NCBI RefSeq assembly: GCF_933509905.1
Contig: NZ_OW150024.1
Coordinates: 372,001 to 436,000, forward strand
Reading direction: 5' to 3'
Source of the DNA: Trichlorobacter ammonificans
GTDB taxonomy: Bacteria > Desulfobacterota > Desulfuromonadia > Geobacterales > Pseudopelobacteraceae
DNA: 64,000 nt
In this document: positions 4,753 through 23,801 of the stretch, in pieces
Layout of the letters: every line of letters starts with the position of its first letter
Numbering within the stretch: the first letter of the stretch is position 1
Made by a program: the position numbers and the translations under genes
Notes under the pieces: generated by a model
What the model saw: the letters and a program-made list of their open reading frames with translations, nothing else
Databases searched by the model: none
What the model was told of the DNA's origin: nothing

Positions 4753-5146
4753 GGCGGGTTTTCAAGCGGGTCAGAAGATCGGCGGCATCAACGGCAAAAT
4801 CAGCCAGTATAGCGTAAACTTCACGCGCCTTCTCTTCGTCGTAGGTGTGAGAGGTAATGTTGCGTTTGTCGCGGTAGTCGAACCAACGCTCGGGCACGGC
4901 AATCAGGCCGCGTTCAGCGCCGATACGGATGATCTCCTTGAACGGCAGGTGATCCAGCTCCTCACGGGAGGGGAGTTCCTGTTCCAGTTGCCGTTTGAGC
5001 ATCTTGAAGGCCAGCTCGTAGGTGTACTCAAAGCGCTGAATGCAGGCATCACGAATATCGTCGTCACCGGGAACGGTACGGCTGCGTTCAAGCACCTTGT
5101 TCAATGAAGTCAGGGCCTTCTCGTAGGAGCTGAAGTCCAGTGTCAT
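4745..5146 (-). CDS. hepT: HEPN/HepT-like nucleotidyltransferase partner (HI0074 family)
   Basis: A 133-residue all-helical protein of the HI0074/HepT type (nucleotidyltransferase substrate-binding family). The diagnostic segment near residues 91-105 reads RDKRNITSHTYDE, with the conserved His and Tyr that in HEPN RNases form the active-site and modification region. With the neighbouring nucleotidyltransferase it forms a two-gene module, often a type VII-like toxin-antitoxin pair. Its ATG overlaps the stop of cbiL (ATGA at 5146-5143), so it is translationally coupled to the cobalamin genes, an unusual position. Whether it is a toxic RNase or a non-toxic partner is unresolved. Confidence 0.78.
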   Translation of the reverse strand: MTLDFSSYEKALTSLNKVLERSRTVPGDDDIRDACIQRFEYTYELAFKMLKRQLEQELPSREELDHLPFKEIIRIGAERGLIAVPERWFDYRDKRNITSHTYDEEKAREVYAILADFAVDAADLLTRLKTRHA

Positions 5147-5886
5147 GTGCCTCTCTCCCGTCTTGAATCCTTTGAAGCAGCCGAACCGGTTCTGCGGATC
5201 ACCAGCAGCGACAGGTAATCCGGGCTGTGGGCCGCGATAGCGGCCCGGTCGGTGAGGATTACCTGCCCCGGCATGCCGACCCGTTCGGCAAAGAGCAGCG
5301 CCAGGTCATCCCTCCCTTCCACCAGTTTCATCACCGCGTCGAAGGCCGGCTTCACCTTCAGGAGCACCAAGGTGTCGCTCCGTTCCAGGGCCGCGCCAAT
5401 CGCCGTCTCCCCGGCAGTGGCCGGCAGTACCAGTAACTGCTGGGCCCCCTCCGCCAGCGGAAACGTTCCCGCCGCCGCCGCGGCAAAGAGCGACGACACG
5501 CCGGGAATCACCTCAAGCGGTACCTCCGGATACTCCCGCCGCATCCCCTCCAGCAGATAGAGCGATGTCGCGTAGAACAGCGGGTCTCCCAGGGCGACGA
5601 AGGCCACCCGCTTGCCCGCCCGCACCCGCTCCGCCACCAGGCGGCAGGCTTCCCGCCAGTGGGGCGCCAGCGCCGCCCGGTCGGCACGCATCGGAAAGAG
5701 CAGCGGCAGCATCTGCTGGCGATGATGATCCAGCAGATCACGGATGATGCCCAGGGCCTGGCTCTGTTCGCCGGGCGCGGTGACCGGCGCGGCAATGACC
5801 TCGGCCTCGCGCAGGACCCGTTCCGCCTTGCGGGTCAGCAGTTCCGGATCGCCGGGCCCCACACCCACCAGTGAGAGCATGCTCAT
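5143..5886 (-). CDS. cbiL: Precorrin-2/cobalt-factor-2 C20-methyltransferase (CbiL/CobI)
   Basis: A 247-residue SAM-dependent methyltransferase of the tetrapyrrole methylase family. The N-terminal LSLVGVGPGDPELLT is the hallmark glycine-rich loop, and 'VAFVALGDPLFY' and 'EVIPGVSSL' are the next conserved blocks. These match CbiL/CobI, which methylates C20 of precorrin-2 or its cobalt form. The ATG at 5886 overlaps the TGA of cbiET (ATGA), which fixes the start. Its stop overlaps the HEPN gene start. A long in-frame extension upstream of 5886 is an antisense-like shadow of cbiET and is not used. Confidence 0.88.
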   Translation of the reverse strand: MSMLSLVGVGPGDPELLTRKAERVLREAEVIAAPVTAPGEQSQALGIIRDLLDHHRQQMLPLLFPMRADRAALAPHWREACRLVAERVRAGKRVAFVALGDPLFYATSLYLLEGMRREYPEVPLEVIPGVSSLFAAAAAGTFPLAEGAQQLLVLPATAGETAIGAALERSDTLVLLKVKPAFDAVMKLVEGRDDLALLFAERVGMPGQVILTDRAAIAAHSPDYLSLLVIRRTGSAASKDSRRERGT

Positions 5887-7103
5887 GGGCCTGCCTGCTT
5901 CCAGGCGGAGATGATGTAGATCGGGTTCTGGGCCTCGAACAGCTTGTACTCGGTCAGGGGGCGGGTGCGGGAGACGTTGATGCAGGCCACCTCCACCTGG
6001 CACCCGTGGTACTCCAGCAGCTCCACCGACTTGCCCAGGGTATCCAGGGTCACGGCATTGATCACGATGATCCCCCCGGGCTTCAGGCGGCGGATCACCT
6101 CGGCGATGATCTCCTCCAGGTTGCCGCCGGCGCCGCCGATGAAGACCCGGTCCGGGTCCGGCAGCTCCTCCAGCCCTTCCGGCGCGTCGGCCACCACCAG
6201 CTTCACGTTGTGAGCGCAGAATTTCTTGAGGTTGTCCCGCAAGTAGGCCACGCACTGCTGGTTCTTCTCAACGGCGTACAGCTTGCCGCCGGGGATCAGG
6301 TTGGAAGCCTCGATGGAGACCGAGCCGGACCCGGCACCGATGTCCCACAGCACCAGATCGTTCTGCAACTGCAGCTTGGCCAGGGTAACCGCCCGCACCT
6401 CCTGCTTGGTGATCAGCTTCTTGATAGTGGCGAACTGCTCGTCCTCGATGCCGATCAGGGGGTAGTGGGCCAACTGCGGTTCCCAGGTGCGGATCAGGAT
6501 CAGCAGGTTCAGGTCGGAATGCTGCAGGGGCAAGAGCCCCCGCACATCGGTGCGGGTGAACTTTTCCGTGGGCAGCCCCAGATCCTCGCAGACCCAGGCT
6601 TCATAGCCGTCGGCCCCGCGATCCAGCAGCTCACGGGCAATGGCCGCCGGGCTGTTGACCCGGTCGGTCAGGACGCAGGCCTTCTCGGCGGCGGTGATCC
6701 GGTCAATGGTGCTGGCCATGCCGCGGCCGTGCACGGAAAGGAAAATGGCGTCGTCCCAGGGCTCCTTGATCCGGGCAAAGGCGTACTGCATGCTGGTGAC
6801 GTTGGCGAAGATCTCGATCCGTTCCTTGGGGAGGTTGCGCAGCAGAAACCGGCCCACGCCGAAGAAGTTGGGATCGCCGGAAGCCAGCACCACCGCCCGC
6901 TTGCCGGTGGTCTGCAGCAGGGTCAGCAGGGCTGGCAGCTCCCCCAGCAGCACCTTCTCGCCGGTAAATTCCGGAAAGCGGTCCAGGTGCCGCTGCCGGC
7001 CGATCAGCAGCTCCGCCCTGGCGATCACCTCCCGCGCCGCAGCGCCGAACCCTTCCATCCCTTCGATGCCGGCACCCACCAGATAAATCTTCTGTTGTGA
7101 CAT
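5883..7103 (-). CDS. cbiET: Bifunctional precorrin-6Y C5,15-methyltransferase / decarboxylase (CbiE-CbiT, CobL)
   Basis: A 406-residue fusion. Residues 1-200 are CbiE-like: N-terminal VGAGIEGMEGF, 'VVLASGDPNFFGVGRFL', 'LSVHGRGM'. Residues 210-400 are CbiT-like: 'LVLWDIGAGSGSVSIEAS' is the SAM-binding loop and 'DRVFIGGAGGNLEEI' the following motif. The enzyme methylates C5 and C15 and decarboxylates the ring-C acetate side chain in corrin formation. It starts the operon cbiET-cbiL-HEPN-MNT. Only 114 bp separate it from the end of the radical-SAM gene upstream, and I see no B12 riboswitch there. Confidence 0.9.
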   Translation of the reverse strand: MSQQKIYLVGAGIEGMEGFGAAAREVIARAELLIGRQRHLDRFPEFTGEKVLLGELPALLTLLQTTGKRAVVLASGDPNFFGVGRFLLRNLPKERIEIFANVTSMQYAFARIKEPWDDAIFLSVHGRGMASTIDRITAAEKACVLTDRVNSPAAIARELLDRGADGYEAWVCEDLGLPTEKFTRTDVRGLLPLQHSDLNLLILIRTWEPQLAHYPLIGIEDEQFATIKKLITKQEVRAVTLAKLQLQNDLVLWDIGAGSGSVSIEASNLIPGGKLYAVEKNQQCVAYLRDNLKKFCAHNVKLVVADAPEGLEELPDPDRVFIGGAGGNLEEIIAEVIRRLKPGGIIVINAVTLDTLGKSVELLEYHGCQVEVACINVSRTRPLTEYKLFEAQNPIYIISAWKQAGP

Positions 7104-7217: not shown

Positions 7218-8507
7218 TTACGGACGAAGCCGCAAATCCTGCAGTACCAACTGCTCCAGGGATGCGTCCAGCATCGGGCGGCGGCAGTCAACGGCGTCAA
7301 AGCCGCCGGTTTTCAGCTTGCTGAAAAAGCGGCAGCCGCCGAAGCAGAGCGGCAGGTAGGCGCACGCCAGGCATTCGTCGTTTTTCCACAGGTCCAGGTT
7401 GTGTGACTGCCGATAATCAGTCGTTCCGTCGGCCAGCGTGCCGATCCGCAGGGACTCATCTCCCATGAACACCGGGCATTTGTAGATGTCGCCGTTGTAG
7501 TTCACCACCCAGTCCTTCTCAAACTCGATCATGCAGGCGCCAGGCCCCAGCCGGTCCGTGGGAAAGCCGCGCCGGATGATCTCGCCCCGCAGGAACAGAT
7601 GGGCTTCAGTGGCCCACGGTTCTGCCGTGCAGGCGCAGGTCATGCCGTGATCTCCCAGCCCGGTGCCGTCGGCCTTGGGCATGATTGCTGCAAACGAGAC
7701 ATCCCGCAGTTTTGCCGGGTTAACGCCTGCTATCAGCAGATGGTCCAGCAGTTCGGGAAACCGGCGGTAAGTGTCGCGGGAGTAATTGCCGCCGATTTTG
7801 AGCGGCACGATGTCGTGTACCGCCGCCAGGTTGGCCAGGATGGTGTCGAAGCTTCCCCGGCCCGAAACAAAGGGGCGCTGGCGGTTGTGGATGTCGGGCG
7901 GCCCGTCCAGGGTGGTGCGTACCGCCTGCAGTCCCAGCGGCAGCAGCGTTTCCACGGTGGGGCGGGTCAGCAGCACGCCGTTGGAGAAAAGGTTGAAAGT
8001 AAAGGTTACACCGTTTCGGACCGCTGCCTCCTGCAGCTGTCCGGCGATACGGCGCAGCAGCTCCAGCCGGACCAGGGCCTCGCCGCCGTAGAAATCCACC
8101 AGAACGTCGAGGCCGCTTGCCATCCGCTCCACGAGCCGGGCAACCAGCAGGTCGGCGGTGGCGTCGGTCATGACCAGCTTTCCGCGAAACGGGTCTTCAA
8201 AACAGTAAGGGCAGGCCAGGTTACACTCCAGGGTCAGGGTCGCCGTTACTTCAAAACGGCGGCTGGCCACGTCGAGGGTGGCAAAGGTGTTCCGCAGGGA
8301 CTCCTGCTCCGCTTCGCGGGACGGCACCAGTACCCCCAGGCGGGTAAACGTTGCCAGTTCCCGGTCGCTCAGCTCACCCCCCGAAACCAGCCGCTGCCAC
8401 AGGCCGGTAGACAGCTCCAGCGCGGCGCAGCGTCGGGTGGCCAGCAGGATGATCCGTTCCGGCTTTTCCGGGTGGGGCCAGGTTTTCAGGTAGGGGGTAA
8501 GGTGCAT
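7218..8507 (-). CDS. Radical SAM/SPASM peptide maturase, locus 1
   Basis: A 429-residue radical-SAM protein with a SPASM C-terminus. The 4Fe-4S motif is CNLACPYC at residues 95-102. The SPASM cysteines are in 'GDIYKCPVF' and in 'NDECLACAYLPLCFGGCRF'. The start at 8507 was chosen because its N-terminus then aligns without gaps to the locus 2 paralogue (MHLTPYLK against MELSRYLK). An ATG at 8522 is the alternative. Enzymes of this class modify a ribosomally made peptide, often at Cys-containing cores. The candidate substrate is the 27-residue peptide just upstream. The protein resembles what I remember being named 'geopeptide radical SAM maturase' in Geobacter annotations, which I could not check. 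The modification chemistry is unknown. Confidence 0.85.
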   Translation of the reverse strand: MHLTPYLKTWPHPEKPERIILLATRRCAALELSTGLWQRLVSGGELSDRELATFTRLGVLVPSREAEQESLRNTFATLDVASRRFEVTATLTLECNLACPYCFEDPFRGKLVMTDATADLLVARLVERMASGLDVLVDFYGGEALVRLELLRRIAGQLQEAAVRNGVTFTFNLFSNGVLLTRPTVETLLPLGLQAVRTTLDGPPDIHNRQRPFVSGRGSFDTILANLAAVHDIVPLKIGGNYSRDTYRRFPELLDHLLIAGVNPAKLRDVSFAAIMPKADGTGLGDHGMTCACTAEPWATEAHLFLRGEIIRRGFPTDRLGPGACMIEFEKDWVVNYNGDIYKCPVFMGDESLRIGTLADGTTDYRQSHNLDLWKNDECLACAYLPLCFGGCRFFSKLKTGGFDAVDCRRPMLDASLEQLVLQDLRLRP

Positions 8508-8548: not shown

Positions 8549-8572
8549 AGCGGGGAGGTTGCCCTCCCCGCT
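8549..8572 (-). promoter_or_regulatory. Stem-loop between precursor peptide 1 and its maturase
   Basis: A perfect 10-bp inverted repeat (AGCGGGGAGG / CCTCCCCGCT) with a 4-base loop lies in the 85 bp between the peptide stop and the maturase start. No run of T follows it on the minus strand, so it is more likely an mRNA stabiliser or partial attenuator than a full terminator. Locus 2 has a hairpin in the same place. That would favour peptide over enzyme output, as in many RiPP operons; this is inference. Confidence 0.6.
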
Positions 8573-8592: not shown

Positions 8593-8676
8593 TTACAGCT
8601 TGGCGCTTTGGGCTCCTTTGCAGCATCCCTGCACGGTCTCTTCGCCTTCAGACAGCACAACCAGTTCTTCGCTCAT
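8593..8676 (-). CDS. Candidate precursor peptide 1 (27 residues, Cys-Cys core)
   Basis: A short frame of 27 codons with a strong purine-rich ribosome site (AAAGGGGGGAAGG) just upstream of the ATG at 8676. The N-terminal part is acidic (SEE...EGEE) with the hydrophobic block LVVLSEG at residues 5-11. The C-terminal part has Cys18-Cys19 followed by KGAQ and the final AKL. Locus 2 has a peptide at the same position with the pattern L-x-V-L-[A/S]-E-G, a spacer and Cys-Cys. Position directly before a radical-SAM/SPASM gene, plus this pattern, makes it the likely substrate, with the LxVL[A/S]EG block as recognition leader and the cysteines in the core. No homologue was searched. Expression and product are unknown. 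Confidence 0.72.
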   Translation of the reverse strand: MSEELVVLSEGEETVQGCCKGAQSAKL

Positions 8677-8777
8677 GGCCTTCCCCCCTTTCATTGGTTG
8701 AAAATCACAGAGTTGGATACTGGACAATACATACGAGTTCTGTTAGCTTTGCAAGCGCAAAAAAGGCCCCTCTCCCC

Positions 8778-10625
8778 ATGATACCATTTTCTCTGCGACA
8801 TAGCCTGCGGGCGGCTTTAGCGGCGGTCTGCATGTCCGTCTGTCTCACGCCGGGCTGGCTTTGGGCCGCCGGCGGGCCGGAGGAGGAGACGCTCGAGCTG
8901 TTCAGCGCCTGGCAGGCGGGCTCAAGCGGTGTAACCCGCTCCCCCAAGCCGCTCTCCCAGACCGCCGAGAACGTCACGGTCATCACCGCCGCCGAGATCA
9001 AGGCCCTGAACGCCCACACCCTGGCCGACCTGCTCGATATGGTGCCGGGACTGCAACTGCAGCATAACGGCGGCCCCGGCATCATCGCCTACACCCAGAT
9101 CCAGAGCGCCAGCTTTGAGCATGTGCTGCTGCTGCTGGACGGCATTCCCCTGACCAATCCCTCATCCAATTTTTCGGACGTGAGCGCCATCCCGGCCCGG
9201 ATCATCGAGCGGGTGGAGATCGTCAAGGGGCCGGCCTCCACGGCCTGGGGTTCAGCCTTGGGGGGGGTGATCAACGCCATCACCAAAGCGCCGGAGCGGG
9301 ACCGTCTGTTCAGCGGCACTGCTGCCGCTGCCATCGGCAGCCGCACCACCAGCGATAGTTCCCTGGAGCTCTCCGGCACCAGCAAACGGCTGGGCTACTA
9401 CCTCTCGGCCGGCTTCCTGGGGAGCGACGGCTTGGTCCCTCTCACCGGTATCAACAGCACCAACTTCCATGGCCGCCTGACCTGGGACCTGCCGGAACAG
9501 GGACAGCTCTTTGCCCAGGTCAACAGCACCAACGCCCGCCAGGGAGACCTGTATGCCCCGGCCTACGACCTGATCCAGCGGGATGACAAACGGCTCATCA
9601 ATGCCCTGGTCGGCCTGCGCTACCCGCTGACGGAGCGGCTGGAACTGGCAGTCAGCGGCTATCACACTTACACACGGCAGTGGGCTTCCTACTACAATAT
9701 CAGTGACGGTGCTGTTTGGTGGGGACAGTCGCCCGACCTGCCCAAAGCCTTTGTCTCGGACAGCTCCCTCGGGGCCACCGCCAGCCTGACCTGGCGCGGT
9801 GACGGCCACTTGCTGGTGGCTGGCGGCGACTACCGGCATCTGGAGATCACCGGGAACTCTGTTGACAGTGCCAGCTACAGCCCCTACCAGCGCGAGAGCG
9901 ACCGCTGGGGATTGTTCCTGAACGATACCATCTCCCTGGGTCGCTTTACGCTCACCCCGGGGCTGCGCTTCGACCGTCCCCGCACCGCGCCGGACCAGTT
10001 CAGCGCTTCACTGGGGGCCACCTGGCAGGTGAGCGACAGCACCCTGCTGCGGGCCTATGTGGCCCGGGGCTACGGCATGCCGGTACTCCTCCCCCAGTAT
10101 GATCCCCGGCCGGCCAAGATACTGACCACCCAGGTGGGGGTGGAGAACAGCAGCATCCCCTACCTCTGGCTCAAGGCAACCCTCTTCCGCAACATGACCT
10201 GGGGGGATGATGTCGAACAGCAGTTGGCCCAGGGAGCCGAACTTGAACTACGGACCAAGCCGCTGTTCCACACCTCGCTGGGGGGAGGCTGGACCTACAC
10301 CGATACTCACCGCACCAGTGACGGCACGCCGGTGCACGCCGACAAGCCGACCCAGACCCTGAAGCTGAGTCTGACCTACGATGACGGCACCTTCCGGGGC
10401 ATGCTGACGGGCCGTCATATCTTCTGGAACAATGCTCCCGAGGATAACGGCAAGAACGGCCTGATCTGGGACCTGCACCTGGGGGCCACGCTCTACCAGC
10501 GGGAGCATACGGCCCTGGAGCTGTTCTTCTCCGGCCGGAACCTGTTTAACAGTCAGTACTACAACCGGGATGTCTTCCCCAGCGTGGGACGCTGGTTCGA
10601 GGGCGGCATGAGGGTGCGGTTCTGA
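8778..10625 (+). CDS. TonB-dependent outer-membrane receptor, locus 1
   Basis: A 615-residue receptor. The ATG at 8778 gives a normal signal peptide (RHSLRAALAAVCMSVCLTPGWLWA); the longer in-frame start at 8694 would add a non-signal extension. A plug domain follows (QTAENVTVITAAEIKALNAHTLADLLDMVPGLQL, here given as the block at about 45-80; 'VERVEIVKGPASTAWG' follows). The rest is a beta-barrel ending in an aromatic strand (GMRVRF). Such receptors import chelates or other bulky ligands using TonB energy. It is divergent from the peptide/maturase pair and is followed with a 1-bp overlap by the binding-protein gene. The second-locus receptor is a clear paralogue. The ligand may be the modified peptide or a metal complex of it; this is inference. 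Confidence 0.88.
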   Translation: MIPFSLRHSLRAALAAVCMSVCLTPGWLWAAGGPEEETLELFSAWQAGSSGVTRSPKPLSQTAENVTVITAAEIKALNAHTLADLLDMVPGLQLQHNGGPGIIAYTQIQSASFEHVLLLLDGIPLTNPSSNFSDVSAIPARIIERVEIVKGPASTAWGSALGGVINAITKAPERDRLFSGTAAAAIGSRTTSDSSLELSGTSKRLGYYLSAGFLGSDGLVPLTGINSTNFHGRLTWDLPEQGQLFAQVNSTNARQGDLYAPAYDLIQRDDKRLINALVGLRYPLTERLELAVSGYHTYTRQWASYYNISDGAVWWGQSPDLPKAFVSDSSLGATASLTWRGDGHLLVAGGDYRHLEITGNSVDSASYSPYQRESDRWGLFLNDTISLGRFTLTPGLRFDRPRTAPDQFSASLGATWQVSDSTLLRAYVARGYGMPVLLPQYDPRPAKILTTQVGVENSSIPYLWLKATLFRNMTWGDDVEQQLAQGAELELRTKPLFHTSLGGGWTYTDTHRTSDGTPVHADKPTQTLKLSLTYDDGTFRGMLTGRHIFWNNAPEDNGKNGLIWDLHLGATLYQREHTALELFFSGRNLFNSQYYNRDVFPSVGRWFEGGMRVRF

Positions 10626-11476
10626 TGCGGCGCTCCCTCCTGCTCATACTTGCCCTGCTGCTGCTCTGCCCGACACTGGCCCGGGCCTATGATCTGCTGG
10701 TGCTGCAGAGCCAGCGCAATCCGGCCTATGACGAGGTGCTGAAAGGCTTGAACAGCGACCGGAGCATCTCCCAGCGGCTGGTGGTGCTGTCCGACTACGC
10801 CGACGTGGATGTGGTGCGGATCGTACGGGAGGACAGCCCCGTCGCCATTGTGGCCATTGGCGACGCGGCCCTGACCGCTGCCCGCAAAGTCCGGCATATT
10901 CCGGTCATCGCACTGATGTCCCTTAAAGTGCACAGTCTGAAATCTTCGCAGCCTAATCTGGCTGGTATCGGCATGTTTGTTGCTCCTGAAAGCTACTGCG
11001 ATCTGTTCCGGCGCATGCAGGTGAAGCGGGTGGGCGTTGTGTACAGTCCCGCCCAGAGCGGCTGGTATCTGCAGAGTGCCCGGCAGGCGGCCAGGGATGC
11101 CGGCATCACGCTGGTGACCCGGGAAGTTGCCGCACCACGGGAAACCCTGGCCCAGCTTTCCTCCCTGGCCGGCAAGGTGGATGCCCTCTGGATGCTGCCG
11201 GACCTGACGGCGGTCACCAGGGAAACCGCTGAAGCCTATTTCCACTTCAGCCAGCAGCAGATGGTGCCGGTGGTCTCCTTTGCCGCCGGTTACCTGGGAT
11301 TGGGAGCGGCGGCGGCATTGGAGATGGATCGTTTTGCCCTTGGCGTGCAGGCAAAGGAGATGGTTGAGGCGTTTCTTGCCGGTGCCGCCGAGAGAAGCCT
11401 GATCAGCTTCCCAAAGAACGTTGCGCTCAGGACCAATCCCACGGTATTGAAGCACCTCGGTTATCAAACCCCGTAG
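10625..11476 (+). CDS. Periplasmic substrate-binding protein (PF04392-type), locus 1
   Basis: A 283-residue protein with a signal peptide (RRSLLLILALLLLCPTLARA). The body resembles the uncharacterised ABC-type substrate-binding family PF04392: two Rossmann-like lobes, with 'PVAIVAIGDAALTAARKV' in the first and 'VKRVGVVYSPAQSGWYL' in the second. No ABC permease or ATPase gene is nearby, so it probably works with the membrane kinase downstream as a ligand sensor rather than a transporter. Its ATG overlaps the receptor stop (TGATG). Its locus 2 counterpart starts at 17193. Confidence 0.75.
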   Translation: MRRSLLLILALLLLCPTLARAYDLLVLQSQRNPAYDEVLKGLNSDRSISQRLVVLSDYADVDVVRIVREDSPVAIVAIGDAALTAARKVRHIPVIALMSLKVHSLKSSQPNLAGIGMFVAPESYCDLFRRMQVKRVGVVYSPAQSGWYLQSARQAARDAGITLVTREVAAPRETLAQLSSLAGKVDALWMLPDLTAVTRETAEAYFHFSQQQMVPVVSFAAGYLGLGAAAALEMDRFALGVQAKEMVEAFLAGAAERSLISFPKNVALRTNPTVLKHLGYQTP

Positions 11477-11522: not shown

Positions 11523-13448
11523 ATGCCCGCACATAGCCGCTGGTTGACCTTGAAGAACAGCTTCCAATACAAACTCTTCTTTCTCTTTTCCATGTTGTTC
11601 CTCCTGATTGTCGTGCTGTTCAGCACCCTCTTCATCCTGCGTGAAATCGATCAGTCAAAGCGGGTTGCCGTCGAGAACCTGAAGCTGCAGGCCAAGTATC
11701 TTGCCGAGTCGATCAGGCTGCCGCTGTTTGCCGAAAACATCGTCATGCTGCAGCGGATGGCGGAGGTTGCGGCCCAGGCGCCGGAGATCAGGTCGGTGGA
11801 GATTCTCGCCCCGGACGGCAGGCTGCTGGCCGCTGTCCGCACCTTTGTTCCCGCCGGTGCCACGGTGTTGACCCAGTCCCTGGAAGTATACAGCAACCCT
11901 TTGATCGGCTCCGTTGAATCATCCATGCACAGCGCTACCGACGACAAAAGCCCGCTGCTGCTGGGCTCCGTCAGGGTCGAGCGCGGCACGACCGATCTCG
12001 CCGCTGCCGTTCACGATCTGATCATAATGTCCGTCGGCATGGCCGCCCTCTTCTGGATAGCTATTTCTTTGCTGTGTTATCCGGTGCTCAAACGGGCGAC
12101 CCGCACCTTTACCACCCTGATGCGGGGAATCGCCGCCCTGCAGCAGGGGAACTACGCCTTTACCATGACTGCGGAATCCGATGATGAGCCGGGGCGGGCG
12201 GTGCAGGCCGTCAAGTGCCTGGCTGAGGAGTTACAGCGGCGCAGCGATGAAAATATCCGCATTAACGCCGAGCTGCTCAATGCCAAGGCGGTGGCCGAGG
12301 CGGCAAACATTGCCAAGAGCGAATTTCTGGCCAATATGAGTCATGAAATCCGTACCCCCATGAGCGGCGTGATCGGTAATGCCCAACTGCTCCGGTTTAC
12401 CAGCCTGAGCGGTGAACAGGAGCGTCTGCTCGAACATATCGAGACCGATGCCAACAACCTGATTTCCCTGCTCAACGATATTCTCGACATCTCCAAGATC
12501 GAGGCCGGGAAGCTGGAGCTTGAGGAAACCCATTTCAGTCTGCGCGGCTGCGTCACGGCCCTGCTGAAGCCCCAGGAACCCAGGATTCAGCGGAAAGGGC
12601 TCCTGCTCACCACCAGCATCGATGACACGGTTCCGGACAGCCTCTGTGGTGACCAGCTGCGCCTCAAGCAGATTCTGTACAATCTGCTGGGCAATGCCAT
12701 CAAGTTCACGGAACAGGGGGAGATCGGAGTACGGATCGAACTGGTCGAACGCAGCGGAGAGGCCGTCCAGGTGCGCTTCAGTATCAGTGATACCGGCATC
12801 GGCATCAAGCAGGATGCCCTGGAAAAGATATTTGCGCCGTTCAGTCAGGCGGACAATTCGGTAACCCGCAGGTTCGGCGGTACCGGGCTGGGGCTGTCGA
12901 TCTGCAGCCGGCTGGTGGAGATGATGCACGGCACACTCACTGTGGAGAGCCGGGAGGGGGTCGGCAGCACCTTCCGGGTAACCCTGCCGTTTCTGGCTGC
13001 GCCGCAGCCGGAAACGGCGCAGGAGCCGGAGCACAGCGCCGGCGCCGTACCGACCTGGGACGGTTCGCCGCTGCGTATTCTGCTGGCTGAAGACAGCATA
13101 ACCAACCAGACGATGCTGACCAGCCTGCTCAAGCATTTCGGCCATGCGGTCACGGCCTGCGGCGATGGCGCCGCGGCGCTGGCGCACCTGGGTTCCGCAA
13201 CTTTTGACATTGTGCTGATGGATATCCAGATGCCGGTCATGGATGGTGAAGAGGCAACACGGGTCATCAGGGAGCAGGAAGCGCAGAGCACTCGGCACAT
13301 ACCGATTATCGCCCTGACCGCCCATGCGCTGCTTGAGCAGAAGCATCACCTGCTGGCGTCGGGGTTTGACGGGTATGTTTCCAAGCCGATCGAGTGGACC
13401 GCCTTGAATGCCGAAATGAAGCGGGTACTGGGGACCGTCAACGCCTGA
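11523..13448 (+). CDS. Hybrid histidine kinase with C-terminal receiver, locus 1
   Basis: A 641-residue membrane sensor. The ATG at 11523 follows GAGGGAG; a TTG at 11487 is the less likely alternative. A first membrane segment lies near residues 18-40, then a periplasmic region of about 130 residues, a second membrane segment and a HAMP linker. The HisKA box is '[13 protein letters not shown]'. The ATPase domain has N-box '[10 protein letters not shown]' and 'GGTGLGLS'. A receiver follows with '[14 protein letters not shown]'. It is the last gene of the receptor-binding protein-kinase operon. Unlike locus 2, no separate DNA-binding regulator follows, so its output must pass to another protein, perhaps the locus 2 regulator. 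Confidence 0.87.
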
Positions 13449-13796: not shown

Positions 13797-13801
13797 TCAA
13801 T
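13649..13801 (+). repeat. Three 68-bp-spaced copies of GTAAAGTTTCTTTCAAT
   Basis: Copies start at 13649, 13717 and 13785. The first two are identical over GTAAAGTTTCTTTCAAT; the third is GTAAAAAACCTTTCAAT and overlaps the stop codon of the maturase gene. Copies 2 and 3 also share GT before the block. The spacing is exactly 68 bp both times. The same word occurs inverted at 21222-21240 and, in variant form, at 21205 and 21291, beyond the other end of locus 2. Likely protein-binding sites or remnants of a regulatory region; the 49-51 bp between copies shows no similarity. Confidence 0.7.
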
Positions 13802-15095
13802 CCTGTCGGTCACGTTGTTCCAGATCTTGTCGCAGCAGCCGCTCCAGGGCGGCATCCAGGTAGTCGCGGCGGCAATCCACGCCGTCGATGGCCCCGGTGC
13901 GCAACCGGCGCAGGAAGCGGCAGCCGCCGAAGCAAAGAGGCAGGTAGGGGCAGTCCAGGCACTCGTCATTCTGCCAGAGCCCGAGTCGGTGGGAGTCGCG
14001 GTAGTCCTTTACCCCTTCCGCCAGGCTGCCGATACAGAGGTCATTCCACCCCATGAAGGCGGGGCAGCGGTAGAGGGAGCCGTCGTAGTTGACTACCAGG
14101 TCGCTCTCAAACTCCACCACGCAGGCGTTGAAGCGGATACGCGGCGTATGGTAGCCCCGTTTGAGGATTTCCCCGCGCAGGAACAGTCCGGCCTCGATCA
14201 GCCAGGGCTCGGCCATGCAGGCGCAGCCCAGGGAAAAATCGCTCAGCCCTGCTTCTCCTGCCGTGGGGGTCACCGGGTTGAAGGTGACCGCCCGGAGCTT
14301 GTCCGGGGTAAGCCCCCGTGCCGGCAGCAGGTCCAGCAGCTCGGGAAAGCGGCGGTAGTTTTCCCGCGTGTAGTTGCCGTTAAGCTGAATGGCGGTCAGG
14401 TCGCAGACATCCGCAAGGTTGTCCAGGATACGTTCGAAACTTCCCTGGCCGGAGACAAAGGGGCGCTGCCGGTTATGGATGTCCGGAGGACCATCCAGGG
14501 TGACCCGGGCGCCGGCCAGCCCCAGGGGGAGCAGTTCTTCCACCACCTGCCGGGTCAGCAGGGTGCCGTTGGTCACCAGCATGAAGGAGTAGGAGAGTCC
14601 CTGCTCTGCAGCGGCCCGTTGCAGGGCGGCGGCAATGCGGCAAAGCAGCGGCAACGACAGCAGCGGCTCACCGCCGTAGAACTCCGTGCGCAGGTTGCGT
14701 CCCCGTGCCAAGGGGCCGCCAGTGGCCGCGTCGATCAGCAGGCTGGCAGTGTCGTCGCTCATGTAGCGCCTGCCCCGGAAATGGTCCTCGTAGCAGTAGG
14801 GGCAGGCAAGGTTGCAGTCCAGGTTGAGGGTCACCACGTAGGTGAAACGGTCGCTTCTCTGTTCCGCTTCAGCGAAAAAGCCGCGGAGCCGTTCCCGTTC
14901 CGCCAGGGCGTCGGGTACCAGGATACCCAGCCGGGCCAGGAGCTCTTGCTCTTCCGGCTCCAGGCTGCCCTCCTGCAGGGCTGCCAGCAGCTCGGCGGGG
15001 ATGTGTAGCAGCGCGCCGCGCAGGGTGGAGTAGAGCAGGTGGGGACCGTTTTCGACGGCAGGAGGAAAAATTTTCAGGTAGCGGGACAGTTCCAT
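13797..15095 (-). CDS. Radical SAM/SPASM peptide maturase, locus 2
   Basis: A 432-residue paralogue of the locus 1 maturase, alignable end to end. The radical-SAM motif CNLACPYC is at 94-101, followed by YEDHFRG. The SPASM segment contains 'GSLYRCPAF' and 'NDECLDCPYLPLCFGGCRF'. It should modify the 33-residue peptide encoded 63 bp upstream. The proteins differ most in the N-terminal 90 residues, where peptide-recognition (RRE-like) regions often sit, fitting distinct substrates. The stop codon lies inside the third 68-bp-spaced repeat. Confidence 0.86.
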   Translation of the reverse strand: MELSRYLKIFPPAVENGPHLLYSTLRGALLHIPAELLAALQEGSLEPEEQELLARLGILVPDALAERERLRGFFAEAEQRSDRFTYVVTLNLDCNLACPYCYEDHFRGRRYMSDDTASLLIDAATGGPLARGRNLRTEFYGGEPLLSLPLLCRIAAALQRAAAEQGLSYSFMLVTNGTLLTRQVVEELLPLGLAGARVTLDGPPDIHNRQRPFVSGQGSFERILDNLADVCDLTAIQLNGNYTRENYRRFPELLDLLPARGLTPDKLRAVTFNPVTPTAGEAGLSDFSLGCACMAEPWLIEAGLFLRGEILKRGYHTPRIRFNACVVEFESDLVVNYDGSLYRCPAFMGWNDLCIGSLAEGVKDYRDSHRLGLWQNDECLDCPYLPLCFGGCRFLRRLRTGAIDGVDCRRDYLDAALERLLRQDLEQRDRQD

Positions 15096-15128: not shown

Positions 15129-15146
15129 GGGGGGCCGGAGCCCCCC
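15129..15146 (-). promoter_or_regulatory. GC hairpin between precursor peptide 2 and its maturase
   Basis: On the minus strand a 7-bp stem GGGGGGC / GCCCCCC closes a TCCG tetraloop, between the peptide stop (15159) and the maturase start (15095). It lacks a following T-run. It occupies the same place as the hairpin of locus 1, although the sequences are unrelated. Confidence 0.55.
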
Positions 15147-15158: not shown

Positions 15159-15260
15159 CTAGCGTAGCGACATTACTGCGGCATAGCAGCAAACAGCGTC
15201 CACGCCGCCCAGGAACGGGCAGGTCCCTTCGGCCAGGACCGACAGGCGTTGCTTCTTCAT
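15159..15260 (-). CDS. Candidate precursor peptide 2 (33 residues, Cys-Cys core)
   Basis: A short frame of 33 codons whose ATG at 15260 is preceded by AGAAAGGGGGTGACACC, a good ribosome site. It has a basic start (MKKQRL), the block LSVLAEG at residues 6-12, Cys14, a glycine pair at 18-19 and Cys24-Cys25 followed by YAA. The LxVL[A/S]EG block and the Cys pair are shared with peptide 1; the rest differs. As in locus 1 it sits directly before the maturase and is divergent from a TonB receptor. It is the likely substrate. It carries three cysteines against two in peptide 1, so the products probably differ. Confidence 0.72.
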   Translation of the reverse strand: MKKQRLSVLAEGTCPFLGGVDAVCCYAAVMSLR

Positions 15261-15366: not shown

Positions 15367-17196
15367 ATGCATACCCGAATAATTTGCCTCAACATATTTT
15401 TGACCCTTCTAATCCGTATCTGCACGAGTAACGCGCCGGTATGGGCCCAGGACAGCACCCTGGGGCTGCTGGAGGGGTACGCTGAGGAGACGGTCACCGC
15501 CAGCCGCCTGCCCAAGCCGATCTCCCAGTCCGCCGAGAACGTCACGGTGGTCACGGCAGCCGAGATCGAGGCGATGCATGCCCGCACCCTGGCCGATATT
15601 CTGAACAACGTGACCGGGGTGCAGCTGCTCAACCAGACCGGCCCTGCCAGTTTGGCCTTCACCCTGGTGCAGGGGGCCAACTTCAACCATCTGCAGGTGA
15701 TGCTGGACGGGGTGCCCCTCAACTCCCTGGCCGATAACTATACCGATATCGGCTTGGTCCCGGCCCGGATCATCGAGCGGGTGGAGATCGTGAAGGGGGC
15801 CGCTTCTTCCGCTTGGGGCCAGGCCCTGGGCGGGGTGATCAACATCATCACCAAATCCCTCCGCACGGAACGGGCTCTGGGGGGAAGTCTTTCCCTGCTG
15901 CAGGGGGAGCGGGGCACCCGGGAAACCGGGGCCGAACTCACCGGCGGTCTGAACTCCTTCGGTTACTACCTGAGCGGCAGCTTCCAGCAGGGGGACGGGT
16001 TCCAGCCCAATACCCGCACCGAGACCCACAGCCTGTTTGCCCGGCTGAGCTATGATCTGCCCAGGGACGGCCAAGTTTCCTTTACCTTGCTCAACGGCCG
16101 TGCCGACCGGGGTAATCTTGCCTATGCCCCCCTGAACTACCGGGAAAACAGTGACCATCGCAACCTGCTGCTGGTGCTGGCGCTGAACAAGCCGCTTACC
16201 AGTGAAGTGGAAGTAGAGCTGACCGCACGTCAGCATATTAACTTATATGGCAACGATACCGGCACCATGGAACCGCCCCAGCCGCTGCAGGCGCTGCATT
16301 TCGACGAGCGCACCAGTGGGGTCGGCGCCCGGCTGCTCTGGCGCACCGCCACCAACCTGCTGGCTGTGGGGGCGGAATACGAGCATGTACGGATGTCGGG
16401 CAACGATACCCTGGCCCAGACCGACCTCTATCGCCGCCGGGCCGACCGCTGGGGGCTCTACCTGAACGACACCCTCACGGTGGGGAAACTCTCCTTCTCC
16501 CCCGGCATCCGTCTCGACCTGACCGGCAGTTCCGGAGAGCAGGTCAGTCCCTCCTTCGGCGTTACCTGGCAGGTGACCGAGGACACCCTGCTGCGGGCCT
16601 ACACCGCCACCGGCTACAGCCTGCCCACCTTCACCGTGGACCGCCCCGCCGAGAAGGTCTGGACCAGCCAGGTGGGGGTGGAGAGCAGCGCCATCCCCTG
16701 GCTCTGGCTGAAGGCCACCCTCTTCCGTAACGAAACCCGCGACATTTCCGTCTACGACTGGGACAGCAGCGGATGGAGCATGGATCGGCAGGTGCGGCAG
16801 GGGGTGGAAGGAGAGTTCCGTACCGTCCCCTATCTGTTTACCTCCCTGCGGGGGGGGTACAGCTTCGTGGATGCGGTCAATCCGGCCACCGGCGCCATCG
16901 CCAGGGACCTGCCCCGCCATACCCTGCATCTGGGGCTGCAGTACGATGACCGCCGCTATCTGCAGGGAATGCTGAACGGTCGCCATATCTGGTGGAATGC
17001 CGCGGACTACCATAATGGCCGCTACCAGGGGCTCATCTGGGATCTGCACCTGACCGCCACTCCCTTTGGCCGCGGTAACGGCCGTCCCGAACTGCTCCTT
17101 TCTCTGCGCAACCTGTTCAACGGCTCCCAGTACCTTGACGAAGCCTATCGCAACCCCGGCCGCAGCATCGAAGGCGGGGTGAGGTTCAGGTTTTGA
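15367..17196 (+). CDS. TonB-dependent outer-membrane receptor, locus 2
   Basis: A 609-residue receptor starting at the ATG at 15367; a TTG at 15349 is possible but less likely. The signal peptide ends near 'APVWA'. A TonB-box-like EETVTASRLP follows, then the plug block with 'QSAENVTVVTAAEIEA' and 'VERVEIVKGAASSAWGQALGG'. The barrel ends 'GGVRFRF'. It is a paralogue of the locus 1 receptor. Its stop overlaps the TTG start of the binding-protein gene. It lies 25 bp below a sigma-54 promoter candidate. Confidence 0.88.
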   Translation: MHTRIICLNIFLTLLIRICTSNAPVWAQDSTLGLLEGYAEETVTASRLPKPISQSAENVTVVTAAEIEAMHARTLADILNNVTGVQLLNQTGPASLAFTLVQGANFNHLQVMLDGVPLNSLADNYTDIGLVPARIIERVEIVKGAASSAWGQALGGVINIITKSLRTERALGGSLSLLQGERGTRETGAELTGGLNSFGYYLSGSFQQGDGFQPNTRTETHSLFARLSYDLPRDGQVSFTLLNGRADRGNLAYAPLNYRENSDHRNLLLVLALNKPLTSEVEVELTARQHINLYGNDTGTMEPPQPLQALHFDERTSGVGARLLWRTATNLLAVGAEYEHVRMSGNDTLAQTDLYRRRADRWGLYLNDTLTVGKLSFSPGIRLDLTGSSGEQVSPSFGVTWQVTEDTLLRAYTATGYSLPTFTVDRPAEKVWTSQVGVESSAIPWLWLKATLFRNETRDISVYDWDSSGWSMDRQVRQGVEGEFRTVPYLFTSLRGGYSFVDAVNPATGAIARDLPRHTLHLGLQYDDRRYLQGMLNGRHIWWNAADYHNGRYQGLIWDLHLTATPFGRGNGRPELLLSLRNLFNGSQYLDEAYRNPGRSIEGGVRFRF

Positions 17197-18080
17197 GGCG
17201 CCTGTTCTTCCGGATAGTCCTGGTGGGCTGCCTGCTGCTGACGCCGTTTGCGGCTGAGGCGTACGAGGTGCTGATACTGCAGAGCAGCCCCTCGCCGGTC
17301 TACGACCAGGTACTGCGGGGAGTCCGCTCGGCGCGGCGTTTCTCCGAACGGCTGCTGGTGCTCTCCGAGTATAGCGAGGTCGATCTGCAGCGGATTGTCC
17401 GGGAGGAGCGCCCCCTGGTCATTCTGGCCCTGGGGGATGAAGCCCTTGCCCTGGCCCGCACGGTGCGCCGGCTGCCGGTGGTGGGGCTGCTGGCCTCCAG
17501 CCTGCGGGCCGTTGCCGGCAGCCATCCCGCCCTGACCGGCGTCGAGGTCCAGGCATCGCCGGAGCGCTATTTGACCATGTTTCAGCATTTGAGGGTCAAG
17601 CGGGTCGGCATGGTCGGCAGCCCGACGTTCAGCAGCCACTATATCGGACGGGCCCGGCAAGCGGCCCAGCGCCACGGGATCGAGCTGGTGATACGGGAAG
17701 TGGAATCCGCCCGTGAGGTCTCCGGGCAACTGGCCTCCCTGCGCGGCAGCGTGGATGCGCTCTGGTTGTTGCCGGACAGTACGGCGGTGGCCCGGGAAAA
17801 CGTGGAAGCCTATTTCCTCTTTTCCATGCAGCACCAGGTGCCGGTGGTGGTCTTTTCCGCCGCCTACCTTCCGGCCGGTGCAGCGGTGGCGCTGGAGGTC
17901 GACCGCCACGACACCGGTCGCCAGGGAGGAGAACTGATCGCCGCCCTGCTGCGGGGCGAAGGGGTGGCGGAGCTTCCTCCGGCAATGCCGCGCAAAGCAG
18001 TGATCAAGTATAACCAGACCGTGCTGCGCCGCCTGGGGATACCGCCGGAGCAGGTGTTGCGGGGTGTGGAGCAGCCATGA
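17193..18080 (+). CDS. Periplasmic substrate-binding protein (PF04392-type), locus 2
   Basis: A 295-residue protein read from a TTG at 17193 that overlaps the receptor stop (TTGA). It has a signal peptide (FFRIVLVGCLLLTPFAAEA) and the same two-lobe fold as its locus 1 paralogue ('PLVILALGDEALALART', 'VKRVGMVGSPTFSSHYIG'). The TTG start fits the tight coupling and gives a proper signal sequence. The stop overlaps the kinase ATG by 4 bp, so receptor, binding protein and kinase are one translational unit. It is probably the ligand sensor for that kinase. Confidence 0.75.
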   Translation: MRRLFFRIVLVGCLLLTPFAAEAYEVLILQSSPSPVYDQVLRGVRSARRFSERLLVLSEYSEVDLQRIVREERPLVILALGDEALALARTVRRLPVVGLLASSLRAVAGSHPALTGVEVQASPERYLTMFQHLRVKRVGMVGSPTFSSHYIGRARQAAQRHGIELVIREVESAREVSGQLASLRGSVDALWLLPDSTAVARENVEAYFLFSMQHQVPVVVFSAAYLPAGAAVALEVDRHDTGRQGGELIAALLRGEGVAELPPAMPRKAVIKYNQTVLRRLGIPPEQVLRGVEQP

Positions 18081-19681
18081 AGGCCCGCCTTGCGCGCCTG
18101 AAACAGTTCACGTCCGGCTTTCAGGCACGAATATTCATCGCCTTTACCGTGTTGACCCTGCTGATCGCCCTCTGGGTGATGGCGGTGGCCGTCAATAACG
18201 AGGTGCGCAACTACCGGGAGCGCGCCAATGAAAGGGTGCGGCTGTTGGCCGTCATGCTGGCGGACACGGTTCGCCTTCCCCTGTTTGCCGGTGACGTTCC
18301 CACCCTTGAGCGGGCCGCCGACAACCTGCTGGCCTTGCCGCAGGTGGCCCGGATCACCATCCGGGATGTGGAGGGGCGGGTGCTGGTCAACCGCATCGTA
18401 CGGCCGGCGCTGGAGGCCGATGCGGCGACCACTGCCTCGGCGCCGGTCATTGCGGCCAGCGGCAGCCCTGCTGCGGACAGTGCCCTTTCCGGGATTCCCG
18501 CCGTGGCCCCTGCCTCTGTCGGCACCGTTACGGTGGTGATCGACACCAGCGACCTGCGGCGGGCCATCCGGATGACACTGGCGAAGAGCTGTGCCGTGGT
18601 GCTGCTGTTCTGGCTGGCGGTACTGGCGGTCACCTATCCGGTGCTGAAGCGGATCACCCGCTCCTTCCACACCCTGATCTCCGGGCTGGATACCATGAAG
18701 GAAGGTGATTTTACCCTGAAGATCGCCGTGGACAGCGACGACGAAGCCGGTCGGGCCGCCCAGGCAGTGAACCGCCTGGCTGCTGCGCTACGGGAACGGG
18801 AGGCGGAGAACCGGACGCTGCAGGCCGAGCTGGTCAGTGCCATGCGGCTGGAAGTGCAGGAAGAAAAGCGAATGATGATGGCCAAGTTGATCCAGACTAA
18901 CCGGATGACCTCCCTGGGGCTGCTCATCTCCAGCATGGCTCACAATATCAACACCCCCAACGGTGCCATCAAGCTGGCGGCCCAGCACATTCAGCGCTCG
19001 TGGCACGATATGCGGCCGCTCTTGGAGTCCCTGACCAGGGAAGAGGGCGATTTTCAGGTGGGGGGACTTCCGTTCAGCGAAGAAGAAAAGGAGTTTTCCA
19101 GCGCCGTGGAGTCCATCTGCCGTAACGCCGAGCGGGTGGAACGGGTGGTGCAGGACCTGCGCACCTACAATGTCGGCGAGCGGAGCCGGTTCAGTCGCGA
19201 GATGGCGGTGAACCGGGCGGTGGAAGGGGCGCTGACCATCATCCGCGCCCATGGCCGACAGGCCGAGATCGCGATCAACCTGCGTCTTGCCGCCGACCTG
19301 CCGCTGGTGACCGGCAACCAGCACCAGATCGAACAGGTGGTGGTGAACCTGCTGCTGAACGCCATGCAGGCCATGACGGAGGAAACCGGCACCGTCACGG
19401 TCACCACCAGCTACGATGACCAGGCCGGCGAAGTGCTGATCGTTGTTGCCGACGAAGGGGGGGGCATTCCCGAGGGCGTCATGTCGCATCTCTTCGAACC
19501 GTTCTTCTCCACCAAACTGCACAAGGGTGGGAGCGGTCTGGGACTCTATATCTCAAACTTCATCGTCACCGAGCACAAGGGACGGCTTATCCTGGAAAGC
19601 ACTCCCGGCATCGGTACCGTTGCCACCATCCGCCTGCCGGCCACCGCCGATTCTGCCCCGCTGGGCCGTTCGAACGCCTAA
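18077..19681 (+). CDS. Membrane sensor histidine kinase, locus 2 (unusual H-box)
   Basis: A 534-residue kinase: a membrane segment near 18-40, a periplasmic sensor of about 120 residues, a second membrane segment near 175-200, HAMP and a coiled region. The H-box reads 'SSMAHNINTPNGAI': the residue after His is Asn, where most kinases have Glu or Asp. The ATPase domain is intact (N-box 'NLLLNAMQAM', 'ADEGGGIP', 'GGSGLGLYI'). It converges with the sigma-54 regulator gene, overlapping it by 4 bp, and is its obvious partner. No receiver domain is attached, in contrast to locus 1. Confidence 0.85.
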   Translation: MKARLARLKQFTSGFQARIFIAFTVLTLLIALWVMAVAVNNEVRNYRERANERVRLLAVMLADTVRLPLFAGDVPTLERAADNLLALPQVARITIRDVEGRVLVNRIVRPALEADAATTASAPVIAASGSPAADSALSGIPAVAPASVGTVTVVIDTSDLRRAIRMTLAKSCAVVLLFWLAVLAVTYPVLKRITRSFHTLISGLDTMKEGDFTLKIAVDSDDEAGRAAQAVNRLAAALREREAENRTLQAELVSAMRLEVQEEKRMMMAKLIQTNRMTSLGLLISSMAHNINTPNGAIKLAAQHIQRSWHDMRPLLESLTREEGDFQVGGLPFSEEEKEFSSAVESICRNAERVERVVQDLRTYNVGERSRFSREMAVNRAVEGALTIIRAHGRQAEIAINLRLAADLPLVTGNQHQIEQVVVNLLLNAMQAMTEETGTVTVTTSYDDQAGEVLIVVADEGGGIPEGVMSHLFEPFFSTKLHKGGSGLGLYISNFIVTEHKGRLILESTPGIGTVATIRLPATADSAPLGRSNA

Positions 19682-21126
19682 TCCTCTTCGCCGTACCGTT
19701 TACCTTCTATCCGGGCCAGCCGCTTCTGCAGCGTGGGCCTGCTTATCCCCAGCAATTCCGCGGCAATACCACGGTGTCCGTTCGACTCGGCCATCGCCTC
19801 CTCCACCAGAAACTGTTCCACCTCATCCAGCGTCGGAAACTCGGGGAACACGCCATGCAGAATGAACTGCTGGCTGCCCACCCGGCGCAGCAAGGTACCG
19901 GGCCGCTTTGTTCCCGGCTTCAGGTCGTGGAAGTCTTCCAGCATCAGGATATCGTTCCGGGAGTAGGTCAGGGCGATGCTGACCCGGTTGATCAATTCCC
20001 GGACGTTACCCGGAAAATCGTAGTTGAGCAGGGCCTGGCGGGCTTCACCGGAAAGCCGGGGAACAGGTCGGTTCATGTGTGTGCAGATCTGTTCCAGGTA
20101 GTGGCGGACCAGGGGCAGGATATCCTCCCGCCGTTCCCGGAGGGGGGGGATATGCAGGTGCAGGGAGCTGACCCGGTAGTACAGGTCCTGGCGGAAGGAA
20201 CCGGCGGCAAGCAAACGGTCGAACTGGGCATTGGAAGCGGTGAGGATACGGGCGTCGCTTTTGTGCAGCACGTCGGAACCGAGACGATAATACTCGTTTT
20301 GCTGGAGCAGCCGCAGGAGCCGTACCTGGGAGGCGGGGCTCAGATCGCCGATTTCGTCCAGGAAGAGGGTGCCCCCTTTGGCCTGCTCGATCAGCCCCAT
20401 CCGGTTCTCAGTGGCGCCGGTATACGCACCCTTCTTGTGGCCGAACAGGGTGTCGGACAGCATGGTGTCGTCCAGTGACGCCACGTTGACCGTTACCAGC
20501 GCTCCCTTGAGTCCGCTGGCCCGGTGGATCGCCTTGGCGATCAGCTCCTTGCCCACGCCGGTCTCGCCCGTGATCAGCACCGGCTGCCGGGAGGTGCGTG
20601 ATGCCTCGATGATTTTGAAAATCGCCAGCATCCGTTCGTTGCAGGTGATGATATCGCTGAAGAACTCCGGGTTGGCCAGGGGCTGGCCCTGCAGGTAACC
20701 GGTCAGCTTGCGGTTCTGGCTGGTCAGTTCTCGCGCCACAAAGGCTTTCTGTACCACCGACACCAGTTTGGCGGCGTCCAGCGGCTTGGTGATGTAATCG
20801 TAGGCCCCTTGCTTGATGCAGGTGACCACGTTGCCCAGGTCGCTGACGCCGGTCAGGATGATCACCGGCAGATAGGGAAAGAGACGGATGATATCGGACA
20901 ACAGTTCGGCACCGGTTACTCCCGGCATGACCCAATCGAGACAAATGACGGAATGTTTTCCCCGCGCCAGGATATGCACTGCCTGGGAACCGTCCTGCAG
21001 GGTATCGGACGATATGGCGTGGGATTTGAGGGCGCGCTGCGCTTCGGCGAGGAAATCGGCGTCGTCGTCGATCAACAGGACGCACTGGCTGTCGGGCTGC
21101 TGGTCCGGTTCGGTCATGGTCATCAT
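19678..21126 (-). CDS. NtrC-family sigma-54 response regulator, locus 2
   Basis: A 482-residue activator. Receiver (residues 12-130) with the acceptor Asp in 'ICLDWVMPGVTG'. AAA+ domain with Walker A 'GETGVGKE' and the sigma-54 contact loop GAYTGA. C-terminal Fis-type helix-turn-helix ('RGIAAELLGISRPTLQKRLARI'). The start codon follows AAGGGAGC. A near-consensus sigma-54 promoter lies 34-50 bp upstream, with repeat words behind it, so it is probably autoregulated through sigma-54. Paired with the kinase at 18077. Confidence 0.9.
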   Translation of the reverse strand: MMTMTEPDQQPDSQCVLLIDDDADFLAEAQRALKSHAISSDTLQDGSQAVHILARGKHSVICLDWVMPGVTGAELLSDIIRLFPYLPVIILTGVSDLGNVVTCIKQGAYDYITKPLDAAKLVSVVQKAFVARELTSQNRKLTGYLQGQPLANPEFFSDIITCNERMLAIFKIIEASRTSRQPVLITGETGVGKELIAKAIHRASGLKGALVTVNVASLDDTMLSDTLFGHKKGAYTGATENRMGLIEQAKGGTLFLDEIGDLSPASQVRLLRLLQQNEYYRLGSDVLHKSDARILTASNAQFDRLLAAGSFRQDLYYRVSSLHLHIPPLRERREDILPLVRHYLEQICTHMNRPVPRLSGEARQALLNYDFPGNVRELINRVSIALTYSRNDILMLEDFHDLKPGTKRPGTLLRRVGSQQFILHGVFPEFPTLDEVEQFLVEEAMAESNGHRGIAAELLGISRPTLQKRLARIEGKRYGEED

Positions 21127-22614: not shown

Positions 22615-23801
22615 TATTCACCTGACAGTTGGCCATTTTCAGTTGGTGGCCATACTGCCCTTGAATGGTAAAAGATGAAGTTGCTCAGACTAAATCTTTC
22701 CATCAAGGAGAACAGTATGACCACCGCCGAGAAAGTATCACGAAGAAAGCTCAGTTTGCTAGAGTTGGCCGCCGATCTTTCGAATGTCAGCAAAGCCTGC
22801 AAGCTCATGGGTTATTCGCGGCAGCAGTTCTATGAAATCCGTCGAAACTATCAGACCTACGGTTCAGCCGGTCTGGTTGATCGGATGCCCGGAGCCAGAG
22901 GCCCGCATCCTAACCGAGTCGATGAATCTGTAGAGCAGGCGATTCTTGAACACTGCCTGGCTCATCCCGGTCATGGCCCGCTACGTGTTGCCAACGAGTT
23001 AGCTCTTAAAGGTACCCAGGTTAGCTCAGGAGGCGTTCGCGGAGTCTGGAGCAGGCACAACCTGCTGACCAAACAGGAACGGATGCTGCGACTTGAAAAG
23101 AGCGTCCGGGAACAAGCCTTCGAACTGTCAGATGAGCAGATCAGGGCCTTGGAACGGTTCAGCCCTGAGTTCAGGGAGCGTCACATCGAAACCAGCCACA
23201 CCGGCGATCTCGTAGCAGTGGACACCTTCTTTGTCGGCACTCTGAAAGGCGTCGGCAAAGTCTACCTGCAATCGGTCATTGATTGCTACTCACGCTACGC
23301 CTGGGGCAAGCTCTACACCAATAAGCTGCCGGTCACTGCCGTGCATGTGCTTAATGAAGACGTACTGCCGTTCTTTGAAGAACATGACGCCCGGATCAGC
23401 ACCATCCTCTCGGATAATGGCAGGGAGTTCTGCGGCAGGCCGGACAATCATCCCTACGAGCTGTTCCTACAGCTTGAAGAGATCGAGCACCGCACCACCA
23501 AGGTCAGACGTCCGCAGAGCAATGGCTTTGTCGAACGGCTGCACAGAACCTTGCTTGACGAACACTTCCGGGTAATGGGCCGCACCAAGTGGTACGAGTC
23601 GTTGGACGAGATGCAGACCGATCTGGACACCTATCTCAAGACTTACAACTACGACCGCCCACACCAAGGCAGAAACATGCTTGGCAGGACGCCATACACG
23701 GTTTTCATAGACGGCTTGCCAAAGAACGACGATTCAGATACTGAGGACTACAAACTGGCAGCGTAAATCACGACCCATTCAAGGGCACTGTCAGGTGAAT
23801 A
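22615..23801 (+). mobile_element. IS481-type insertion sequence
   Basis: Bounded by a perfect 15-bp inverted repeat, TATTCACCTGACAGT at 22615-22629 and its complement at 23787-23801. Further inside, GCCCTTGAATGG is also shared but displaced by 27 bp at the left end, where a short duplicated segment (CAGTTGG twice) is inserted. It contains a single intact transposase gene. I see no target-site duplication next to the 15-bp repeats; the ends may extend slightly further as an imperfect repeat. Confidence 0.8.
22717..23766 (+). CDS. IS481-family DDE transposase
   Basis: A 349-residue transposase from the ATG at 22717, which follows AAGGAGAACAGT. An N-terminal helix-turn-helix region precedes an rve-type catalytic core with the acidic triad in 'LVAVDTFFVG', 'ILSDNGREFCG' and 'NGFVERLHRTLLDEH'. 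The frame is intact, so the element may still be active. It lies between matching 15-bp inverted repeats. Confidence 0.9.
   Translation: MTTAEKVSRRKLSLLELAADLSNVSKACKLMGYSRQQFYEIRRNYQTYGSAGLVDRMPGARGPHPNRVDESVEQAILEHCLAHPGHGPLRVANELALKGTQVSSGGVRGVWSRHNLLTKQERMLRLEKSVREQAFELSDEQIRALERFSPEFRERHIETSHTGDLVAVDTFFVGTLKGVGKVYLQSVIDCYSRYAWGKLYTNKLPVTAVHVLNEDVLPFFEEHDARISTILSDNGREFCGRPDNHPYELFLQLEEIEHRTTKVRRPQSNGFVERLHRTLLDEHFRVMGRTKWYESLDEMQTDLDTYLKTYNYDRPHQGRNMLGRTPYTVFIDGLPKNDDSDTEDYKLAA

Follow-up and report, generated by a model that had tools for sequence, protein, structure and literature searches.

The locus analysed here raises the question of whether a reading frame of 27 codons, located upstream of a radical SAM/SPASM maturase gene, encodes the substrate of that enzyme, and what such a peptide would be used for. 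The frame lies in a 64,000-nucleotide stretch of DNA, hereafter the window, which contains two loci of this kind (Table 1). The preliminary description had claimed for the frame a ribosome site, an acidic leader and a Cys18-Cys19 pair, and we found that all of these are present. The ribosome site is purine-rich; the sequence 5' of the ATG is AAAGGGGGGAAGGCC, and the nearest relatives carry AAAGGAGGGTGAGCAG and AAAGGAGGTGATGTTGCC at the equivalent position. The segment N-terminal to the Cys pair contains five Glu and no Lys or Arg, and the peptide contains two Cys in total, as do 89 of 121 relatives. The frame is coding and conserved. A gap of 85 nt separates its stop codon from the ATG of maturase 1 at 8507. 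A longer version of the maturase, a 480-aa frame from TTG 8660, would overlap the precursor; it is unneeded, since the family model TIGR04280 aligns from residue 1 of the shorter protein.

Table 1. Positions of the features of the two geopeptide-type loci in the window.
Feature	Position	Strand	Details
Radical SAM/SPASM maturase 1	7218..8507	-	429 aa; TIGR04280, 594.5 bits
Stem-loop of locus 1, in the gap between precursor 1 and maturase 1	8549..8572	-	AGCGGGGAGG-GCAA-CCTCCCCGCT
Geopeptide-type precursor 1	8593..8676	-	27 codons; translates as MSEELVVLSEGEETVQGCCKGAQSAKL
Ribosome-binding site of precursor 1	8683..8691	-	AAAGGGGGG; relatives have AAAGGAGG at the equivalent position
Upstream element	8720..8727	-	TTGTCCAG; TTGTCCA-type
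TonB-dependent receptor 1, divergent	8778..10625	+	PF07715 and PF00593
Periplasmic binding protein 1	10625..11476	+	PF04392
Hybrid sensor histidine kinase with receiver domain	11523..13448	+	Locus 1
Radical SAM/SPASM maturase 2	13797..15095	-	TIGR04280, 645.6 bits
Intercistronic stem-loop of locus 2	15129..15146	-	GGGGGGC-TCCG-GCCCCCC
Precursor of locus 2	15159..15260	-	MKKQRLSVLAEGTCPFLGGVDAVCCYAAVMSLR; from short-frame survey and held-out profile
TonB-dependent receptor 2, divergent	15367..17196	+	Locus 2
Periplasmic binding protein 2	17193..18080	+	PF04392
Sensor histidine kinase 2	18077..19681	+	Read from translation
Response regulator, apparently NtrC-type (sigma-54 activator)	19678..21126	-	Read from translation; convergent with kinase 2

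The two maturases are the only proteins of the genome that exceed the curated cut-off (400 bits) of TIGR04280, the NCBIfam model of the geopeptide radical SAM maturase, and the next-best family gave 129-140 bits, as compared with 594 and 646 bits for TIGR04280. Members above the cut-off were found in 101 of the 277 genomes searched within the class, all those listed belonging to the window's own order, and further families of the phylum also have members. The radical SAM motif CxxxCxxC is intact (C95, C99 and C102) and, together with the C-terminal Cys, invariant in 51 sequences, and the SPASM model TIGR04085 scored 51 bits. In an AF2 model of maturase 1 (pLDDT 90.2 overall), residues 7-72 form three strands followed by three helices (pLDDT 94-96), the order of an RRE domain, suggesting that the N-terminal fold is RRE-like (PqqD-like) and constitutes a predicted leader-binding domain. 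The closest solved structure was CteB (5why; Foldseek E 4.7e-21, profile E 1.7e-31), followed by anSME and ChlB. The predicted fold and the match to CteB support leader binding and a peptide modification of the SPASM type; they do not settle the chemistry, because no conserved acceptor residue is visible C-terminal to the Cys pair in the precursor alignments.

The preliminary description had proposed a comparison of the regions upstream of homologous maturase genes, and for 133 distinct maturase genes from related genomes we searched as much as 420 nt of preceding sequence for short frames equipped with a ribosome site. A short frame encoding VLxEG and then Cys was found at 123 of them, 122 by rule (27-44 residues) and one (L123) by eye; two of the ten genes lacking a precursor (L032 and L057) have too little upstream sequence. 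The Cys pair occurs as CC in 115 of 121 distinct peptides, with CTC or CKC in four and a single Cys in two. In general, the leader is conserved and the core is variable. A loss of the frame and the Cys pair in close relatives, which the preliminary description had named as grounds for rejecting its proposal, was looked for and did not occur. The nearest relatives of precursor 1 are MSEELVVLSEGEETVANCCAATANAKIK (L108) and MSEELVVLAEGQETVESCCKGTATTKL (L056), against which its pN/pS was 0.30 and 0.21, respectively. Pooled over 50 close precursor pairs, pN/pS was 0.30, as compared with 0.85 and 1.51 for the other two frames. Judged by these substitution ratios, the precursor frame is under purifying selection. 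We also built a held-out profile from 115 precursors, each less than 55% identical to either window peptide, and ran it on the 768 ORFs of the window; precursor 1 and the locus-2 peptide took the first and second ranks, each with E 1.1e-7, and the third ORF was at 0.076. A Pfam scan of the precursors gave nothing meaningful.

Several variants were seen in the same survey. The loci with CTC or CKC instead of CC (L058, L098, L127 and L131) have a leader resembling the locus-1 type. A sub-type with a (P/G)-F/W/I/L-R-like C-terminal end after the Cys pair, unlike precursor 1, was found at L059, L063, L076, L104, L113 and several loci outside the class, and two different precursor frames stand in tandem 5' of one maturase at L229. 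The proteins of L122, L124 and L126 are maturase-like and keep the SPASM region, with CxxxCxxC lost; these loci have neither a precursor nor a receptor, and a histidine kinase gene lies directly upstream.

The NCBIfam model named geopeptide, TIGR04229 (cut-off 30 bits), matched neither window peptide, even at E 10. Of the 121 precursors, 15 score at about the model's cut-off (E 3e-7) and 106 are missed there, and 71 are reached at E 1; since the model misses most of the family, annotation undercounts geopeptide precursors. The window locus resembles the TIGR04229/TIGR04280 system in maturase family, precursor position, VLxEG leader motif and CC pair, and differs in that precursor 1 falls outside the score of the curated model. 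As far as homology, position and maturase go, precursor 1 is thus of a known kind, and it is not so by the curated precursor score, because TIGR04229 misses it. The proposal that the frame encodes a substrate for a radical-SAM enzyme and occupies the usual place of a precursor was borne out at the level of sequence by the conservation of its location, reading frame, leader motif and Cys pair beside a maturase of a named family. Taken together, these results suggest, with a probability of roughly 0.8, that the frame encodes the precursor of a geopeptide-type RiPP modified by the adjoining maturase; this estimate concerns the precursor-maturase half of the system.

Comparison with other peptide-modifying systems gave partial likenesses. 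A SPASM region and an N-terminal RRE-like domain, predicted in the case of maturase 1, are common to maturase 1 and CteB, the maturase of SCIFF peptides (ranthipeptides), at 18% identity in the structural alignment; SCIFF peptides and ranthipeptides are defined by six Cys in about 45 residues, whereas precursor 1 has two. The model of the ranthipeptide maturase PapB was among the better non-geopeptide matches, at 112.6 bits against a cut-off of 340. PapB uses a Cys-X3-Asp/Glu spacing, which by eye is absent from precursor 1. Methanobactin loci link a ribosomal Cys peptide to TonB-dependent transport, and the window locus is alike in both respects, except that it has a radical SAM enzyme where methanobactin loci have methanobactin enzymes.

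Both loci of the window show the full order of precursor, maturase, receptor, PF04392 protein and kinase, to which locus 2 adds the NtrC-like regulator. We surveyed receptor linkage at 95 loci within the order that have at least 2.9 kb of upstream flank. A TonB-dependent receptor gene was present at 91 loci (directly upstream and divergent at 72, directly upstream on the same strand at 6 and elsewhere at 13) and a PF04392 binding protein gene at 90, and a histidine kinase gene often follows them. Three of the four loci without a receptor lack CxxxCxxC and a precursor, and in the remaining one the maturase gene stands second in a tandem pair. At 20 loci above the cut-off in the phylum outside the class, we found a receptor at 19, PF04392 at 14 and, by the same rule, a CC precursor at 15; precursor, maturase and receptor occur together at L163 (Desulfurivibrionaceae). 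Geopeptides are names in a model library, and our literature search found no paper on them or on their linkage to TonB, PF04392 and kinase genes. Precursor and maturase are of a kind that already has a name, and it is the link to receptor and sensor genes that deserves further attention: because a TonB receptor is almost always present, usually together with a binding protein and often with a kinase, geopeptide function becomes testable. The present genome encodes two PF07715 (Plug) proteins, one at each geopeptide locus, and three PF04392 proteins, two of them here, and is thus an unusually clean test site.

The module also occurs apart from geopeptides: the genomes examined contain TonB-PF04392 pairs without a nearby maturase, and an exclusive tie is ruled out by these orphan copies. 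At L197, L198, L200-L203 and L205 we saw TonB and/or PF04392 modules whose surroundings yielded neither a maturase nor a precursor, and some of these include a histidine kinase; L199 is an apparent orphan, yet a precursor is present at the contig end. Distances between maturases and receptors were correlated (Mantel r 0.70), as were those between peptides and receptors (0.56), and in 64 of 76 cases the locus closest by maturase ranked among the five closest by receptor (5 expected by chance). Paralogues within a genome differ as much as loci from different genomes do. Given the maturase, the peptide-receptor correlation fell to 0.19 (partial Mantel, p 0.0005), so inheritance of the whole cassette explains most of it; a stronger claim of peptide-receptor co-evolution was dropped in view of this weak partial correlation.

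We propose the following mechanism. The precursor and the maturase would be expressed from one operon, in which the intercistronic hairpin would favour the precursor message over the maturase message. The RRE-like domain at the N-terminus of the maturase may bind the acidic, hydrophobic leader ELVVLSEG, as fold and conservation suggest, and the radical SAM/SPASM core would modify the C-terminal part around Cys18-Cys19. The most likely chemistry is a thioether between a Cys sulfur and a residue close by, for which we consider the chances to be even. A putative protease would separate the leader from the product, which would exit the cell via a putative export route and be recognized by the TonB-dependent receptor encoded back-to-back with the precursor. 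The receptor would hand the product to the PF04392 binding protein, and the histidine kinase would report it, so that the cell would sense and/or import the modified peptide that it makes, which may carry a bound ligand. On the basis of the gene linkage, we lean towards the view that the product serves as ligand for an uptake or sensing system dedicated to it. More tentatively, geopeptides might be radical-SAM-modified ligands with their own outer-membrane receptor, binding protein and kinase, forming a Gram-negative peptide signalling or metallophore loop throughout the phylum, in which receptor and peptide diversify together and the modules without a maturase are eavesdroppers or takers.

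A less likely explanation is that the geopeptide is used inside the cell or periplasm as a redox cofactor or metal ligand, and that the TonB, PF04392 and kinase proteins sense a needed metal or corrinoid. PQQ and mycofactocin arise from peptides. Consistent with such a use, no recurrent exporter or leader peptidase was found among the neighbours of the loci and TonB-PF04392 modules occur without a maturase, both of which also count against the mechanism proposed above. In addition, the vicinal Cys could bind a metal, and the best scores of the receptors are those against TonB-B12 models, although these remain far under the cut-off. However, a fixed small ligand would not require peptide and receptor to diversify together, as they do, and an Rfam scan of the 64-kb window gave zero matches, cobalamin riboswitch included. 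Corrin genes adjoin the window locus, but no corrin-gene family recurs among the shared neighbours.

Many radical-SAM-modified peptides are antibacterial (PMC8326336), and a variable core beside a conserved leader would also suit a narrow-spectrum bacteriocin, with the TonB receptor as its entry port and the module serving immunity or detection. We regard this as improbable, as no immunity or export gene recurs at the loci, the producer would encode its own entry receptor beside the peptide, and the distribution of the system is not sporadic but covers much of an order.

The gap between precursor and maturase commonly contains a hairpin. Among 94 loci with a gap of 40-130 nt, 76 have a stem stronger than those of shuffled sequences (z > 3), and the stem sequences are quite different from one another. 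The hairpin probably sets the relative levels of the two messages, with that of the precursor more abundant. That the frame, which directly precedes a strong hairpin, is instead a short leader ORF regulating the maturase in cis by attenuation, and no substrate, is very improbable, as its codons are constrained at the amino-acid level (pN/pS 0.2-0.3), conservation across the phylum is seen in the protein motif and not in the hairpin sequence, and the locus-1 hairpin lacks a U-run 3' of the stem.

Returning to the geopeptide precursor, we found three elements upstream of its ATG in 120 loci: TTGTCCA in 27 (0.8 expected; about 45 nt before the ATG), TAGCAGA in 14 (1.1 expected; about 75 nt) and AGGCTAT in 16 (1.1 expected; about 110 nt). 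These elements are possibly a regulator site common to the precursor and the divergent receptor gene. TTGTCCA was also considered as a sigma-54, ECF or sigma-70 promoter; judged by eye, the spacings fitted poorly. With regard to the surroundings of the two loci, genes resembling corrin-pathway methyltransferases, by eye from translation, lie downstream of maturase 1 (5143-7103, minus strand), and a link between them and the geopeptide locus was discarded, as the adjacency is not common to relatives. Beyond the locus-2 region, an integrase/transposase-like gene, of the DDE type by eye, is located at 22675-23766 on the plus strand.
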